Positions 37,822 through 53,564 of a stretch of DNA of 64,000 bases are shown here, piece after piece. The DNA lies in NCBI GenBank assembly GCA_946185285.1, contig CAMHIS010000004.1:1-64000 (forward strand). The letters run 5' to 3'. The first letter of the stretch is position 1. Every line of letters starts with the position of its first letter. The stretch is from an uncultured Prevotellaceae bacterium. Lineage in GTDB: Bacteria > Bacteroidota > Bacteroidia > Bacteroidales > Bacteroidaceae. The position numbers and the translations under genes are program-made. The notes beneath the pieces are model-generated. The model was not told the DNA's origin. It saw nothing but the letters and a program-made list of their open reading frames with translations, and ran no database searches.

Positions 37822-37975
37822 AAGCCTCCCCAAGCCCCTCCGAAGGAGGGGATGTTTAGTTACATAACTGGGGTATTATTCTAAAGATTAAACATTAATT
37901 ATATATTCTTTATCATCCATACAGTCTCCTTGTCTATTCAGACATCCCCTCCTTCGGAGGGGCTTGGGGAGGCCT
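37822..37975. repeat. Inverted-repeat element (34-bp arms, ~85-bp core) between MFS gene and kduI
   Basis: aagcctccccaagcccctccgaaggaggggatgt ... acatcccctccttcggaggggcttggggaggcct; 33/34 arm identity; overlaps the kduI stop codon. Confidence 0.85.
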
Positions 37976-45299: not shown

Positions 45300-47972
45300 T
45301 CAGCTTCGGCTAATCTGTAATCCTGTCTTCGACAGGGTCATATCGACAAAGCGGGCATTGGCATTGGGACGGTTGGCCTGCAGAATGGTCTTGATGCGGG
45401 CAGCAGCCTCGGGGTCCTTGGCCACCATATAGAGATAGCCACCACCGCCGGCCCCCGGCAGTTTGTAGCCCAAACAGAGGTCATCGACAAGGACGGTCAG
45501 CGCCGCCACTTCCGGCGGGTTCGTGCCGCTGTCGAGAAGCTGGTTCTGCTGCCACGTCTTGCGGACGATGCGGCCCATCGTCGGGAAGTCCTGCCGTTGG
45601 ATGGCCTCGTACATGTCCATCGTGTGCTGCTTCATCTGGCGCAGCAGGAGCAGCTGATTGTGCTCGTTGAGGAACATCCGGCGCACTATCTCGGCCAGGA
45701 TTTTCTTGGCCGTGCGGGTAATGCCCGTATAATATAATAGGTGGCACTGCTGGTACTCGGGTTGCGTATAGAGACCGTCGGGAAGCCAGCGCACCGAGGG
45801 GTTCTGGTCAAAGCCGCTGGTGGTCTGCAGCAGTTTGACGCCGCCAAGAACGCCGCCGAACTGGTCCTGCCAGCCGCCGCCAGTGGTGAGCATCTGCTCC
45901 AAGACAAGCGTACGGTGGCCTATCTCATTCTTATCCCAGCCTAACTGGCAGAAGTCGTTGAGGGCACCGAGGACGGTGGCTGCAAGGATGCTCGACGTGC
46001 CGAGGCCGCTGCCTGCGGGGACGGCTGAGAGAAGGGTCAGCTCGATGCCGCAGCCGAAGGCTTCGAGCTGGGAGCGGAGCGAGGAGGGCTGCGGCACCGC
46101 CGCAGCACAGCCGACAGCAACAGGACTGCCGAAGCCGGCGAGCGTCAGGGCGGCCTTGGGGATTGAGAAGGGCGAGCCCACTTTCCTATAGTCGGAGAGC
46201 TGCTCGTTGGTCTCCACGACTTCGGTGGCTCCGAGGTCGATGCTACGAAGGACGATGTGCGGCTCGCGGCAGGGTTTTACGTAGCACTGCAGCGGCGGCT
46301 GGCCGTTCAGTTCGATGGCGACGTTGACGACATTGCCGCCCTCCATCAGACAATAGGGCGGCGTGTCGGTCCATCCGCCGGCGATGTCGATGCGCACAGG
46401 GGAGCGCGCCCAGACGATCTGGTCGGGGAAAGCCTCACCCCCGCCCCCTCTCCAATGGGAGAGGGGAGTAAAATGCTTAACGGCAGTATCAGCAGCAGAG
46501 TAATCACTCCCCTCTCCCCTTGGAGAGGGGCTGGGGGTGAGGCTTTCCCGCAACAGCTCAAACGCCCGTTCGCTGTCACCACGGAACATAGCATCGTGGA
46601 TGCGTGTCATCAGCGGTGCGTCGGCGGGCAGGGGCGGTGGCAGGGGTATCTGTTCCTTACGGAACTGCTCGGCGGCATCGGCCAGGTCGAGCTGGTAGAA
46701 GACGGAGTGCCGCCAGTTTCGGGCCAGTGCCGGCCAGTTCTCGCGCTGGTAGTCGCGCCGCTGTTGGAACAGGCGGTGCAGGTTGGCACGCTCGGCCAGG
46801 GCGTTGCTATCCACCGGGGCGTCTATATGGTAGCGGCGCACCTCGTAGTCGCTTTCGCCTACGGGTACGACGTCTATGCACTCGCCAGGCTCGAGCGTGA
46901 CATCCCAGTCGTTGCGGGGCACGCCGGTGATGACGTGGTCGCGGGTGAGATGCCAACTCTTGGGTACGTGTGAGTTCTCTATCCAGATATTGGTGTTCTC
47001 CTCGGTGAACGTCACCTCAGTCACGGCGTTCTGCACAAAGATGTTGGGATGCGGCTTGCGGTCGAGGTGCATGATCTGGCGTTGGTCGCTGACCAGGCCC
47101 TGCAGGGCGAGCGTTGACGAAATCATCTCGCGCGACGTGCCAAAATGATAGAACTCGCCGCCCGTCAACGGCAGGATGGCCACGCTCAAGGAGCGCAGCT
47201 CCGCATCATCAATCGTCGGGTCAGTACCAAGCGAGCAACCAAACTCACCGTACAAATCGTATGGAGTAACCACTCCCCTCCCTTTAGGGAGGGGCTGGGG
47301 GTGGGTCTGCTGGGTCTTTTCCATCAGCACCCTCACCGCCCGGTCGCTCAACAGCCACACGCCGACATCGGTCAGGTAATAATGGTCTTTCTGCAACTCC
47401 TTCAGCGTCTGCACCGACGGTTTCTGCAGCATCTGCTTCAGCACGGTCGGCGTGTTACGGCTACTGACGAAAACACCGTGATGGGAGGCAGTCGAGGCAG
47501 GAAGCCACAGGCCATAGCACACCACGTCGGCATCGGGGATGGTCGGCAGGGGCTGCGTGGCGCGCACACAGACGTCACCGCTGACCACCATCGTATGGAT
47601 GGTATCGGGCGCCATCGCCATCATCTGCCGATAGAGGGGCAGCTGCAAGTCCATCAGCGTCTGAGACAACCGCTGGCCGCGCTCCCAGCGCAATACAGGG
47701 ACGGGCATCAGAATCTTTCCGCTGACGGCATACGACGGGAGCCGACGGCTCTGTCCGCCGGCGTGAACCAGGATGCGCTTGTCCTGTGCCAGCCAGCCGT
47801 CAAAATCCGACTGGGAGCCACAGGCCTGCTGCAGGAGCCACGCCGTGCCGCCACCACTGCCGAGGCGGTGACCGACGGGGTCGCAGGTGCAGAAAAACTC
47901 GTCGCGGCTCAGGCCGGTAATATCGTGAAAGCAGCCCACCACATTGGGGGGCAATGACAACAGAACCTCCAT
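45300..47972 (-). CDS. fkp: Bifunctional L-fucokinase / fucose-1-phosphate guanylyltransferase
   Basis: FFCTCDPVGHRLGSGGGTAWLLQQ and GHMP kinase region RSPVRIDIAGGWTDTPPYCLMEGG / VPAGSGLGTSSILAATVLGAL. Confidence 0.92.
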   Translation of the reverse strand: MEVLLSLPPNVVGCFHDITGLSRDEFFCTCDPVGHRLGSGGGTAWLLQQACGSQSDFDGWLAQDKRILVHAGGQSRRLPSYAVSGKILMPVPVLRWERGQRLSQTLMDLQLPLYRQMMAMAPDTIHTMVVSGDVCVRATQPLPTIPDADVVCYGLWLPASTASHHGVFVSSRNTPTVLKQMLQKPSVQTLKELQKDHYYLTDVGVWLLSDRAVRVLMEKTQQTHPQPLPKGRGVVTPYDLYGEFGCSLGTDPTIDDAELRSLSVAILPLTGGEFYHFGTSREMISSTLALQGLVSDQRQIMHLDRKPHPNIFVQNAVTEVTFTEENTNIWIENSHVPKSWHLTRDHVITGVPRNDWDVTLEPGECIDVVPVGESDYEVRRYHIDAPVDSNALAERANLHRLFQQRRDYQRENWPALARNWRHSVFYQLDLADAAEQFRKEQIPLPPPLPADAPLMTRIHDAMFRGDSERAFELLRESLTPSPSPRGEGSDYSAADTAVKHFTPLSHWRGGGGEAFPDQIVWARSPVRIDIAGGWTDTPPYCLMEGGNVVNVAIELNGQPPLQCYVKPCREPHIVLRSIDLGATEVVETNEQLSDYRKVGSPFSIPKAALTLAGFGSPVAVGCAAAVPQPSSLRSQLEAFGCGIELTLLSAVPAGSGLGTSSILAATVLGALNDFCQLGWDKNEIGHRTLVLEQMLTTGGGWQDQFGGVLGGVKLLQTTSGFDQNPSVRWLPDGLYTQPEYQQCHLLYYTGITRTAKKILAEIVRRMFLNEHNQLLLLRQMKQHTMDMYEAIQRQDFPTMGRIVRKTWQQNQLLDSGTNPPEVAALTVLVDDLCLGYKLPGAGGGGYLYMVAKDPEAAARIKTILQANRPNANARFVDMTLSKTGLQISRS
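46425..46549. repeat. Inverted-repeat element read in frame inside fkp
   Basis: ggggaaagcctcacccccgccccctctccaatgggagaggggagt ... actcccctctccccttggagaggggctgggggtgaggctttccc; encodes ESLTPSPSPRGEG...LSHWRGGGGEAFP. Confidence 0.9.
47267..47310. repeat. Single-arm related palindromic repeat inside fkp
   Basis: aaccactcccctccctttagggaggggctgggggtgggt; encodes THPQPLPKGRGVV; matches one arm of 46425-46549. Confidence 0.8.
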
Positions 47973-47977
47973 GACGA

Positions 47978-50476
47978 CTACTGTGCAGACTTCATCTTGC
48001 GGTATGAGAGGAACAGTGCCAACAGAATGAGCAACAGAAGTACGCCTAAAGAAGCGTAAGCTACGGTCTCGGTGACATCAAGCGACCTGGGGAAGAACGA
48101 CAGCACAACCTTATGCTGTCCGGGGCTGACGGTGAGGGCGCGCAGCACGTAGTTGACACGACCAAGCTCAACAGGCTGGTCGTCGACAGTGGCCGTCCAG
48201 CCGGGATAGTAGATTTCCGAGAACACCACTACCCCACCCCGTGCCGACTTCACGTCGTAGGTCAGCTGGTTGGGCTCATAGGCTGTCAGGGTGACCACGG
48301 CGACCGAGTCGGCAGCCTGCTCAGCCGAGACCTTCAGTTGTTCGCGGAACTTGGCATCGGCAACGGCCTCGTGGCGAAGATCGAGCTTGCCGAGGGCGTC
48401 GAGCTCCTGGTTGGCATTGTCGACGAACTTCACCGAGTTGACAAACCAGGCATTGCCATAGGTGTAGGGGTTCTGTAGGGGCACGGTCTTACCGTCCTGC
48501 AGCGGCAGGATGAAGTACTTGGTGTTGAGCATGTTGAGCACGGGATAGACGGAGTCGCCCTTCACCAGCGTCATGTCGCCGGCAGCCTCAGCCACGGCGG
48601 CAAAGGTCTGCTGCATCTCGGGCGAGATGTACGCCTCGATCAGCTCCTGATAGCGGCGCAGCTTGGCGGCGTGGTAGCCACCGATAGACTTATGGTAGTA
48701 GGATGTCTCGTTCTCGTTGAACGTGTTCGAGGCGAGGTTCAGCACGCGGTAGTCGAGCGACTTGTCGGCGAGGATCATCTCGTCGGTCTCAGTTTTGGGC
48801 TGCGCCTGCTCGCGCTCATACTTGGGCACGAACATCGCGTCGTTCAGGTAGCGCTTGTTCACCGTCCAGAGGTCGATGAGACAGAGTGCCAGGAGCAGGC
48901 CGGCCAGGGTAACAGCCTTCAGCTTGCGTGCCATGAAGAGCACCAGACAGACGGTGCCGATAAGGATAATAATGAACGAGCGCATGGCATCGCTGGTAAA
49001 CATGGCACGGCGCATCTCCGACAGATTGGCCAACAGCGGGTTGAGCTGGTCGGCAGGGAACTGCGACAGGGCCTGCATCTCGCTGGAGGAGACGTAATTA
49101 CCAAAGAACACGTCGGGCATCGCCCAGAACAGCAGGGCCACGCAGCCCGTGAGGGCGAACGAGGCGACAACGGCCTTACGCAACTTATCAGTTTTCACTT
49201 CCCCGCTCACCACTTCCTTCAGTGCCAGCATGGCCAACAGGGGAATGGTAAACTCGGCGATGACGAGGATGGAGGCCACGGTTCGGAACTTGGCGTACAT
49301 CGGCATATAGTCGATAAACAGGTCGGTCAGCCCCATGAAGTTCTTACCCCACGACAGCATGATGCTCAGCACCGTTGCCGCCAGGAGTGCCCACTTCATC
49401 GGACCTTTGACGATGAACAGGCCCAGCACGAAGAGGAAGAGCACGAAGGCACCGACGTAGACGGGCCCCGACGTGCCAGGCTGCTCGCCCCAATACTGTC
49501 CTAACTGTTGGTAGATGCCGATGTAGTTGTTGTCGGCGTGCTCCATCGCCGTCTTGTTCATCGCCAGCGGCTGCGAGGCACCGCCCTTCACGTTGGGCAC
49601 GAGGAGTGTCCACGTCTCGCCGATGCCATACGACCACTGGGTGATATAGTCGCGCTCCAGTCCGCTCGAGGTCTGGTTGGCGGTGTTCTCCTTCACCAGC
49701 TCACTCTTGCCGCGCATCGACTCTTTCTGGTATTGCCACGTATGGTAGAGGTTCGAGATATTGACCAACACGCCCACCAGACCGCCTACTATGCAGACGG
49801 CCGTAGCCTTCAGGAAGCGAGCCATCTGCTTCTGGCGGATGGCCTCGACCAGGTAGGCCAGTATCATAAAGAAGATGACAAACAGATAGTAGTACGTCAT
49901 CTGCACGTGGTTGGCCTTCACCTCGAAGGCCGCGAAAAGCGCCGTCACAACAAGTCCCCATAGGTACTTGCCGCGATAGGCCAGCACGATGCCCGCTATC
50001 AGCGGCGGCAGGTAGGCCAGGGCCCACACCTTCCAGATGTGGCCGGCGGCGATGATAATCAGGAAATAGGTGCTGAAGGCCCACATCACCGAGCCTAACG
50101 CCGCCAGATACCAGCGGAAATCGAAGGCCCGCAACAGGAGGTAGAAGCCTAAGAGGTAGACGAAGACATACCAGACATTCTCGGGCAGCCACAGGTGGTA
50201 GGCATCGATGGCCTTGTTCAGCAGATTGGAGCTGTCGTACGACGGTGCCGACTGGTAGGTGGGCATGCCGCTGAACAGGGCGTTGGTCCAGCGGGTAGCC
50301 TTGCCCGTACGCTGATAATACTCACCCTGCTCCTGTCCGGCTCCAACACTGGCAGAGGAATCGTGGCGATAGAGGATGCGCCCCTCCGTATCGGCAGGGA
50401 AGAAATAGGCAAAGGCCAGAACGGCGAACAATAACACGACCAAAATGTCGGGCACGAATTTCTTGAATTTAGTCAT
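47978..50476 (-). CDS. YfhO family membrane protein
   Basis: Large polytopic protein; VVVFSEIYYPGWTATVDDQPVELGRVNYVLRAL C-terminal motif; start at MTKFKK. Confidence 0.85.
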   Translation of the reverse strand: MTKFKKFVPDILVVLLFAVLAFAYFFPADTEGRILYRHDSSASVGAGQEQGEYYQRTGKATRWTNALFSGMPTYQSAPSYDSSNLLNKAIDAYHLWLPENVWYVFVYLLGFYLLLRAFDFRWYLAALGSVMWAFSTYFLIIIAAGHIWKVWALAYLPPLIAGIVLAYRGKYLWGLVVTALFAAFEVKANHVQMTYYYLFVIFFMILAYLVEAIRQKQMARFLKATAVCIVGGLVGVLVNISNLYHTWQYQKESMRGKSELVKENTANQTSSGLERDYITQWSYGIGETWTLLVPNVKGGASQPLAMNKTAMEHADNNYIGIYQQLGQYWGEQPGTSGPVYVGAFVLFLFVLGLFIVKGPMKWALLAATVLSIMLSWGKNFMGLTDLFIDYMPMYAKFRTVASILVIAEFTIPLLAMLALKEVVSGEVKTDKLRKAVVASFALTGCVALLFWAMPDVFFGNYVSSSEMQALSQFPADQLNPLLANLSEMRRAMFTSDAMRSFIIILIGTVCLVLFMARKLKAVTLAGLLLALCLIDLWTVNKRYLNDAMFVPKYEREQAQPKTETDEMILADKSLDYRVLNLASNTFNENETSYYHKSIGGYHAAKLRRYQELIEAYISPEMQQTFAAVAEAAGDMTLVKGDSVYPVLNMLNTKYFILPLQDGKTVPLQNPYTYGNAWFVNSVKFVDNANQELDALGKLDLRHEAVADAKFREQLKVSAEQAADSVAVVTLTAYEPNQLTYDVKSARGGVVVFSEIYYPGWTATVDDQPVELGRVNYVLRALTVSPGQHKVVLSFFPRSLDVTETVAYASLGVLLLLILLALFLSYRKMKSAQ

Positions 50477-50491
50477 AACTTGCATGTTTTT

Positions 50492-50548
50492 TATGTTTTT
50501 GCGTGCAAAGGTACGAAAAAAAATCGTACCTTTGCACGCAAAAACATA
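50492..50548. promoter_or_regulatory. Perfect palindromic divergent promoter region (yfhO-like / luxS)
   Basis: tatgtttttgcgtgcaaaggtacga-aaaaaaa-tcgtacctttgcacgcaaaaacata; 25-bp perfect arms, each containing TACCTTTGC. Confidence 0.9.
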
Positions 50549-50584
50549 GAAAAAATCGGATTTACACCCTGAACAAGCTGAATT

Positions 50585-51079
50585 ATGGAAGTCATACAAA
50601 GTTTCACCATCGACCACACCCGTCTGAAGCCGGGCATTTACGTCTCACGTGAGGACAAGGGTTTTACCACGTTCGACCTGCGCATCACCGAACCCAACAA
50701 GGAGCCTGCCGTGGCACCAGCTGCCATGCACAGTCTGGAGCACTTGATGGCTACGTGGTTCCGCAACTCCGAAGTCAAGGAAGACGTAGTATACGTAGGT
50801 CCCATGGGCTGCCTGACAGGTATGTACATCATCATGACAGGCTCTTATACCGTTGAGGGCATGCGCCAGCTGACCATTGAATGCTTAGAGTGGATTCTCA
50901 CGCAGACGGAGGTGCCTGCCACGGAGCCGCAGACCTGCGGCAACTACCTGCTCCACGACCTGCCAATGTGCCAGTGGGAGAGCCGCCGCTATCTCGACCG
51001 CCTGCTGCACGACTTCCACTCGGAGTACACCCGTCTGCAGGTCACCCTCAGCGACGGCCGCCAGTTTGCCGACGCATAA
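50585..51079 (+). CDS. luxS: S-ribosylhomocysteine lyase LuxS
   Basis: HSLEHLMATWFRN, VYVGPMGCLTGMY, CGNYLLHDL motifs. Confidence 0.93.
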   Translation: MEVIQSFTIDHTRLKPGIYVSREDKGFTTFDLRITEPNKEPAVAPAAMHSLEHLMATWFRNSEVKEDVVYVGPMGCLTGMYIIMTGSYTVEGMRQLTIECLEWILTQTEVPATEPQTCGNYLLHDLPMCQWESRRYLDRLLHDFHSEYTRLQVTLSDGRQFADA

Positions 51080-51650: not shown

Positions 51651-53564
51651 TTACTTTACCCTAATACCCGCCTTCTTGCGCTGATCGTGGTCAAGGATAA
51701 TCTTGCGCATACGCATGGACTGCGGCGTCACCTCCACCATCTCGTCTTCCTTGATATACTCCAAGCACTCTTCCAACGACATGACCATCTTGGGGATGAT
51801 GCGCGCCTTGTCGTCGGTACCCGAGGCACGGACGTTTGTCAGCTGCTTTGCCTTGCAGACATTGATGACGAGGTCATTGTCGTGGACGTGCTCGCCGACG
51901 ACCTGACCGAAGTAGACTTCCTCGCCCGGGTCGATGAAGAACTTGCCTCGGTCCTGCAGCTTGTCGATGGCGTAGGCGTAGGCGGTACCCGTCTCGAGGG
52001 CAATCATCGAACCGTTGACGCGGCGCTCAATCTCACCCTTGTAAGGCTGGTACTCCTTGAAGCGGTGGGCCATGATGGCCTCGCCCTGGCTGGCCGTCAG
52101 CACGTTGGTGCGCAGGCCGATGATGCCGCGCGAGGGAATGTCGAACTCAATATTGGTGCGCTCGCCCTGCGACTCCATCGATGTCATCTCGCCCTTGCGG
52201 CGCGTCACCATGTCAATCATCTTCGAGGCAAACTCCTCGGGCACGTTGATGGTGAGCTCTTCGATTGGCTCGCACTTGATCAATTGAGAATTGAGAGTTG
52301 AGGATTGAGAATTATGATTACCTGCTTCAGCAGTGTTTCCGCCCTTGGAGTTATCATAATTCTCCATTTTCAATTCTCCATTCTCCATTCGTCCGTAACG
52401 GTAGATGACTTGTGGCTGGCCAACCTGCAGCTCGTAGCCCTCGCGGCGCATGGTCTCGATTAGCACGCTGAGGTGGAGCACGCCACGGCCGGAGACCACC
52501 CACTTGTCGGTGGAGTTCTCAAACTGCTCAACGCGCAGGGCGAGATTCTTCTCGAGCTCGCGCTCCAGGCGGTCGTTGATGTGGCGCGAGGTGACGAACT
52601 TACCCTCGCGGCCGAAGAACGGCGAGTCGTTGATGGTGAAGAGCATCGACATGGTGGGCTCGTCAATGGCGATGGGCGGCAGCGGCTCCGGGTTCTCCAG
52701 GTCGCAGATGGTGTCGCCAATCTCGAACTTCTCCAAGCCGATGACGGCGCAGATGTCGCCGCAGTCAACCTTGTCGGTGCGCGAGTGACCCATGCCGTCG
52801 AAAGTGTGTAACTCCTTGATCTTGGTTTTCTCCAACGAGCCGTCGCGGTGGGCAATGGTTATCTGCTGACCGTCGCGGAGCGAGCCACGATGGACGCGGC
52901 CCACGGCGATGCGGCCTGTGTACGAGCTATAGTCGAGCGAAGTGATGAGCATCTGGGGCGTACCTTCCAACTGCTTCGGGGCGGGAATCACCTCGATGAT
53001 CTTGTCTAATAAATAGGTGATGTCGGTGGTGGGCTTGTTGTAGTCCTCGCCCATCCAGCCGTTCTTGGCCGAACCGTAGACGACGGGGAAGTCGAGCTGG
53101 TCCTCGGTGGCATTCAACGAGAACATCAGGTCGAACACCATCTCGTAGACCTCCTCAGGGCGGCAGTTGGGCTTGTCGACCTTGTTCACCACGACGATGG
53201 GCTTCAGGCCAATCTGCAGGGCCTTTTGCAGCACGAAGCGCGTCTGCGGCATCGGACCCTCGAAGGCGTCGACCAACAGCAGACAGCCGTCGGCCATGTT
53301 GAGCACGCGCTCCACCTCGCCGCCGAAGTCGGAGTGTCCCGGGGTGTCGATGATATTTATTTTCGTGCCTTTCCAGTTGATACTTACATTTTTCGAGAGA
53401 ATGGTAATGCCACGCTCGCGTTCCAAATCATTAGCATCCAACACCTGACTCGAGAGATTCTGTCCCTCACGGAACAGATTGCCAGCCAACATCATCTTGT
53501 CCACAAGCGTCGTTTTGCCGTGGTCTACATGTGCGATAATCGCTATATTCCTAATATCCTGCAT
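51651..53564 (-). CDS. typA: Translational GTPase TypA/BipA
   Basis: [69 protein letters not shown]. Confidence 0.95.
52278..52395. repeat. Imperfect inverted-repeat insertion read in frame inside typA
   Basis: caattgagaattgagagttgaggattgagaattatgatt ... atcataattctccattttcaattctccattctccattc; encodes [37 protein letters not shown]. Confidence 0.85.

Follow-up and report, generated by a model that had tools for sequence, protein, structure and literature searches.

Between two divergent genes of the window, a stretch of 64,000 nucleotides, lies a perfect inverted repeat of 57 bp (50492-50548) in which, on sequence inspection, two 25-nt arms face each other with 0 mismatches across a 7-bp loop, AAAAAAA (50517..50523). 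The left, yfhO-side arm (50492..50516, read on the minus strand) is the exact reverse complement of the right, luxS-side arm (50524..50548, plus strand), as the preliminary description of this site had stated, and each arm, read outward, is TCGTACCTTTGCACGC. When two mismatches are allowed, the symmetry widens to 33-nt arms (50484-50516 and 50524-50556). On the plus strand the palindrome is followed by luxS (50585..51079), which encodes an S-ribosylhomocysteine lyase of 164 aa (PF02664, E 2.6e-46), and on the minus strand by a gene for a yfhO-like membrane protein (47978..50476; PF09586, E 6.7e-12), whose start we picked by conservation. For yfhO, the start conserved among relatives is the ATG at 50476; an in-frame ATG at 50485 is due to the window's CATGCAAG, where relatives have CTTGCAAG. 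Many species keep a 12-nt palindrome, AACTTGCAAGTT, right before the yfhO ATG (50474-50488 and the leaders of relatives), and the window has AACATGCAAGTT in its place, which gives rise to the extra ATG. The preliminary description had proposed a search for other copies in the genome; of the arm we found no second copy in the 3.08-Mb assembly when up to 3 mismatches were allowed; shuffled sequences likewise gave 0 matches for the palindrome.

Promoter elements in the palindrome core and across the genus

Each arm contains the same -7 box, TACCTTTG, an extended TAnnTTTG element pointing outward, at 50527..50534 (plus strand) toward luxS and, as its mirror, at 50506..50513 (minus strand) toward yfhO, which agrees with the divergent promoter proposed earlier. 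The promoter of Sigma-ABfr, the Bacteroidota primary sigma factor, has been described in Bacteroides with a -7 element TAnnTTTG and a -33 element TTTG (PMC7366714), and TACCTTTG is the consensus core of the former on both strands. De novo alignment of 147 promoters, most of them taken from loci in the genus, yielded the consensus G-TA[ACT]C-TTTGCA with an A-rich start after it, and the luxS box has the G before it and the CA after it that this genus consensus calls for. Each window arm reads TCGTACCTTTGCAC, the full consensus -7 region, and in each arm the inner 13 nt (TCGTACCTTTGCA) fit the promoter consensus; promoter function would thus account for about half of each arm. Further upstream, 71 one-way promoters, defined by the lack of an opposing box, show a TTG peak 19-20 bp from the TA. 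For a -33 element (TTTG or TTG at about 19-21 bp) the window offers a TG alone, which belongs to a TGCAAA, lies at 50504..50505 on the plus strand, 21 bp upstream of the TA of the luxS promoter, and forms the tetramer CGTG, a weak -33. We propose that this TG is common to the -33 contact of the luxS promoter and the opposite -7 region, and that the mirror TG at 50535..50536 (minus strand) would be the corresponding contact of the yfhO promoter.

Such an arrangement recurs in the genus. Back-to-back primary-sigma -7 boxes (TGCAAANNTA-N4-30-TANNTTTGCA) occur 11 times in the window genome and 1-25 times per genome in 35 sampled genus-mates, against 0-3 for a backwards control. Among 63 divergent box pairs that we fetched, the total length of the paired boxes falls at 31-33 in 37 and at 41-44 in 17, with the range between nearly empty, and a genome from another family of the same order (G400) shows similar groups, at 31-37 and 41-45. 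Discrete length classes about 10 bp apart are seen genus-wide (for example, L153-L163 and L171-L222), with a few pairs at 24. Pairs of the 31-33 class have the TG within a TGCAAA 19, 20 or 21 bp upstream of the TA of the opposite box, in agreement with the -33 spacing found independently in the one-way promoters, and a T precedes this TG in 34/74; the window site has length 33 and spacer 21. Because the TG of the short class sits at the -33 spacing of one-way promoters, we consider the palindrome core to be probably an interlocked bidirectional promoter, in which the TGCAAA complement of each TAnnTTTGCA box provides the TG of the other's -33, and the inner symmetry of the arms would follow from this double use of each -7 extension. 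Polymerase would then occupy the site in one orientation at a time, firing yfhO or luxS alternately, and while bound one way would block the other direction. The 41-44 bp class, about one helical turn longer, is unexplained by the shared TG. Paired boxes also show a surplus of matching NN letters (61 vs 45.6, p 0.003), which we rejected as support since genomes vary in composition.

In E. coli, divergent starts of bidirectional promoters lie inside a shared -10 element or to either side of it and are most often 18 bp apart (PMC12825309). These promoters (Warman et al. 2021 Nat Microbiol, cited in PMC12825309; Warman et al. 2026, PMC12825309) resemble the window site in having a pseudo-symmetric core that polymerase can engage either way, with one binding event barring the other. 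They differ in that the window has two distinct -7 boxes, with 13 bp separating their TA steps, in place of a shared symmetric -10; the -33 of one promoter would overlap the -7 extension of the other, and the predicted starts are separated by about 40 bp. The Sigma-ABfr promoter of Bacteroides shares its -7 box with the window site, and de novo analysis of the genus recovered a TTG at the corresponding distance upstream; it has been described as a one-way promoter, and the word 'bidirectional' does not appear in the main text of PMC7366714. A literature search, itself incomplete, found no description of an interlocked -7/-33 layout in Bacteroidota. This layout, a variant of known bidirectional promoters that is widespread in these bacteria, is more interesting than the mirror symmetry. 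If the starts are confirmed, a simple sequence rule based on length (31-33 or 41-44) could be used across Prevotella to predict which divergent genes are coupled and mutually exclusive, and it would probably extend to other Bacteroidales, whose promoter rules are less studied than those of E. coli. In its broadest form the proposal, which we hold at even odds, is that Bacteroidota use widespread interlocked bidirectional promoters, of 31-33 bp and of a class one helical turn longer, in which each -7 extension serves as the other's -33, and that template switching can turn these into perfect palindromes whose two genes share a start region.

Outer arms and the history of the locus

The outer 12 nt of the two arms are the same, CGCAAAAACATA, at 50492..50503 (minus strand) on the yfhO side and at 50537..50548 (plus strand) on the luxS side, where they probably comprise the start-site region and the first transcribed bases. 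From column frequencies, such an identity has a chance of about 3.4e-6 per promoter pair, and a comparison of 7,140 pairs drawn from other outer leaders gave a longest common run of 8 nt, against 12 in the window pair. The outer symmetry of the window palindrome is exceptional, because no significant excess of outer-arm symmetry is found in divergent promoters as a set (p ~0.06 to 0.33) or in the yfhO loci outside the clade described below (p 0.27).

Loci that share the yfhO site come mostly from rumen Prevotella genomes, and in many of them yfhO diverges from a pfs-luxS pair. In most near relatives the yfhO-side promoter is kept, with CACGCA after TTTG and then AACTTGCAAGTTATG, and the other side is variable. 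Specifically, in L062, L064 and L122, in which pfs and then luxS stand opposite yfhO, the yfhO side retains GTACCTTTGCACGCA, with one inner change in L062, and the pfs side reads TAGCCAAAACC in L062, CAGTCTAAAACAG in L064 and CACCACAAAC in L122. Because these three loci have both promoters without the outer symmetry, the outer 12 bp of symmetry appear to be dispensable for the two promoters. The preliminary description had judged the symmetry to be far beyond what two promoters need, which these loci bear out; it had also named relatives with both promoters and no symmetry as evidence that would speak against its reading, and such relatives these are. In two other yfhO-pfs lineages, L097 and L099, 8-9 outer bases match between the arms, with letters other than those of the window (CAGCCAAA and CAACCAAA); these may be further copying cases, although the yfhO loci outside the clade fall short of significance when taken together.

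The outer palindrome is confined to a clade of four species (the window, L032/G115, G260 and L038), in all of which a yfhO-like arm is present on the luxS side and luxS stands directly opposite yfhO, with no pfs between them. The arms of L038 have three mismatches, the palindrome of G260, pieced together across two contigs, lacks a loop and measures 50 bp, and loop length across the clade is 7, 4 or 0. Both arms read TTTCTGCG in L032 and G260 and both read TTTTTGCG in the window, a paired difference; the luxS side of the window is also short of one base. The yfhO tree, from which we took the polarity of events (the luxS DNA tree was too poorly resolved), joins the four species at 92/88; G067 is their sister, and the group that carries pfs lies outside. 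This grouping would place the origin of the palindrome on the stem of the clade or just before it.

Pfs (MTAN) makes the substrate of LuxS. Its gene is at another site in G115, G260, L038 and the sister G067, adjoining ksgA in G115, G260 and G067, and it was not found in the window assembly (G000), which is 71% complete. The link between AI-2 and YfhO that had been drawn from the facing of luxS and yfhO is not supported, and the tie between the two genes is secondary, given the many relatives with yfhO opposite pfs-luxS and the move of pfs in the clade; the present neighbourhood looks like a relic of an older divergent pair of yfhO and pfs-luxS, and we give it little weight. In the sister G067 (L230, 2480-3070), luxS sits between typA and yfhO in head-to-tail order, all on one strand. 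Its orientation is thus the reverse of that in the window, and no divergent promoter pair is present, which we read as a local inversion of luxS.

Proposed inverted copying and competing explanations

The reading that we favor, at a probability of roughly two in three, is that of an interlocked bidirectional promoter, served by the Bacteroidota primary sigma factor, in which inverted copying made the outer flanks identical. In the ancestor of the four-species clade, the yfhO-side arm (GTACCTTTGCACGCAGAAAC) would have been copied in inverted form to the luxS side; template switching during replication is the most likely mechanism, with the inverted repeat of the two boxes as its seed, and a later event in the window lineage would have altered both arms again. 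A template switch should leave several bases of one arm changed at once to those of the other, and this is the pattern observed: the luxS-side arm of the clade matches the yfhO-side arm, and the sister group has other letters. Inverted copying is favored because the luxS-side arm has the same letters as the yfhO-side arm, which is conserved, and because the paired difference separates species. Together, the TTTTTGCG shared by both arms and the base lost on the luxS side of the window suggest that one copying event could cover several changes. Of the origins offered in the preliminary description, an inverted copy created by duplication is thus the best supported. Template switching is known to make inverted repeats perfect (PMC8794818, PMC7202029), and the likeness to such quasipalindrome mutations lies in an imperfect repeat being perfected from its other arm with several changes at once; the window case differs in that it would have been seeded by a promoter pair and is deduced from species comparison, where those were observed as mutations. 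The event is rare and rests on one clade, because neither the divergent-promoter set nor the non-clade yfhO loci show an excess of outer symmetry. The extra symmetry would then be chiefly a by-product of mutation, and incidentally both mRNAs would be expected to carry the same leader; the palindrome, if this is true, would be a natural example of promoter-seeded template switching. Selection for symmetry is a possible alternative cause, because the clade offers essentially one clear paired substitution; relatives manage without the symmetry.

The strongest competitor, still an improbable one, is a symmetric operator at which a dimeric regulator binding the whole palindrome would co-regulate yfhO and luxS, a possibility raised earlier on account of the dyad symmetry. 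Perfect symmetry over 57 bp, kept in 3/4 clade members, is what such a site would display, but close relatives have the same two promoters without the outer part, the arm is found nowhere else in the genome, and L038 has lost the symmetry. Moreover, the letters shared by the arms differ between species and yet stay paired, whereas a site of fixed specificity would keep its letters, and inverted copying appears to fit the clade data better.

Less likely again is a DNA cruciform or hairpin acting as a functional element, for instance as a supercoiling sensor for divergent transcription. The earlier suggestion of a cruciform holds up as a physical possibility, as the strand folds perfectly at -29.4 kcal/mol (calculated for single-stranded DNA) vs -5.5 for shuffles, but any long palindrome folds in this way, the loop length is inconstant in the clade, and neither formation nor use of the structure is supported. 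No RNA hairpin would accompany it, since neither transcript should carry both arms; an RNA hairpin or attenuator was rejected for the same reason, each transcript being expected to hold one outer arm only. An Rfam scan of the palindrome returned just microRNA-like matches far below threshold, which are typical of any hairpin.

That two independent consensus promoters came to be identical by chance is very improbable: the idea accounts for the inner 13 nt, which are promoter consensus, and other perfect cores exist at L162 and L190, but it founders on the outer 12 nt, with their low expected frequency and nothing comparable among the other leader pairs, and on the recurrence of the outer match in relatives with different letters, so that the clade data already disfavor it.

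An artefact of assembly, or a chimera from metagenome binning, deserves slightly less credence. Draft genomes are involved, and the G260 assembly did break here: its yfhO contig (C57, L226) terminates in a fold-back of itself immediately beyond the palindrome, within which the luxS contig (C25, L225) stops. These breaks are a palindrome-induced assembly artefact, and such an element can therefore break short-read assemblies. The window, however, continues into luxS, and two separate assemblies (G115/L032 and L038) read through the same yfhO-promoter-luxS junction.

Least credible of all is a dispersed mobile repeat of the MITE or REP-like kind with outward promoters, which the short, palindromic form would suit, but which is opposed by the single genomic occurrence at 3 mismatches and by the conservation of the yfhO-side arm start in near relatives that have no palindrome.

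Other inverted repeats are present in the window. Two long, GC-rich ones, at 46416-46559 (inside a predicted 890-aa gene) and 37824-37973, resemble a dispersed repeat of the CCCCTCTCC type. An AT-rich inverted repeat at 52282-52389 (AATTGAGAATTGAG...) lies in frame in a typA-like gene and adds residues to the protein.
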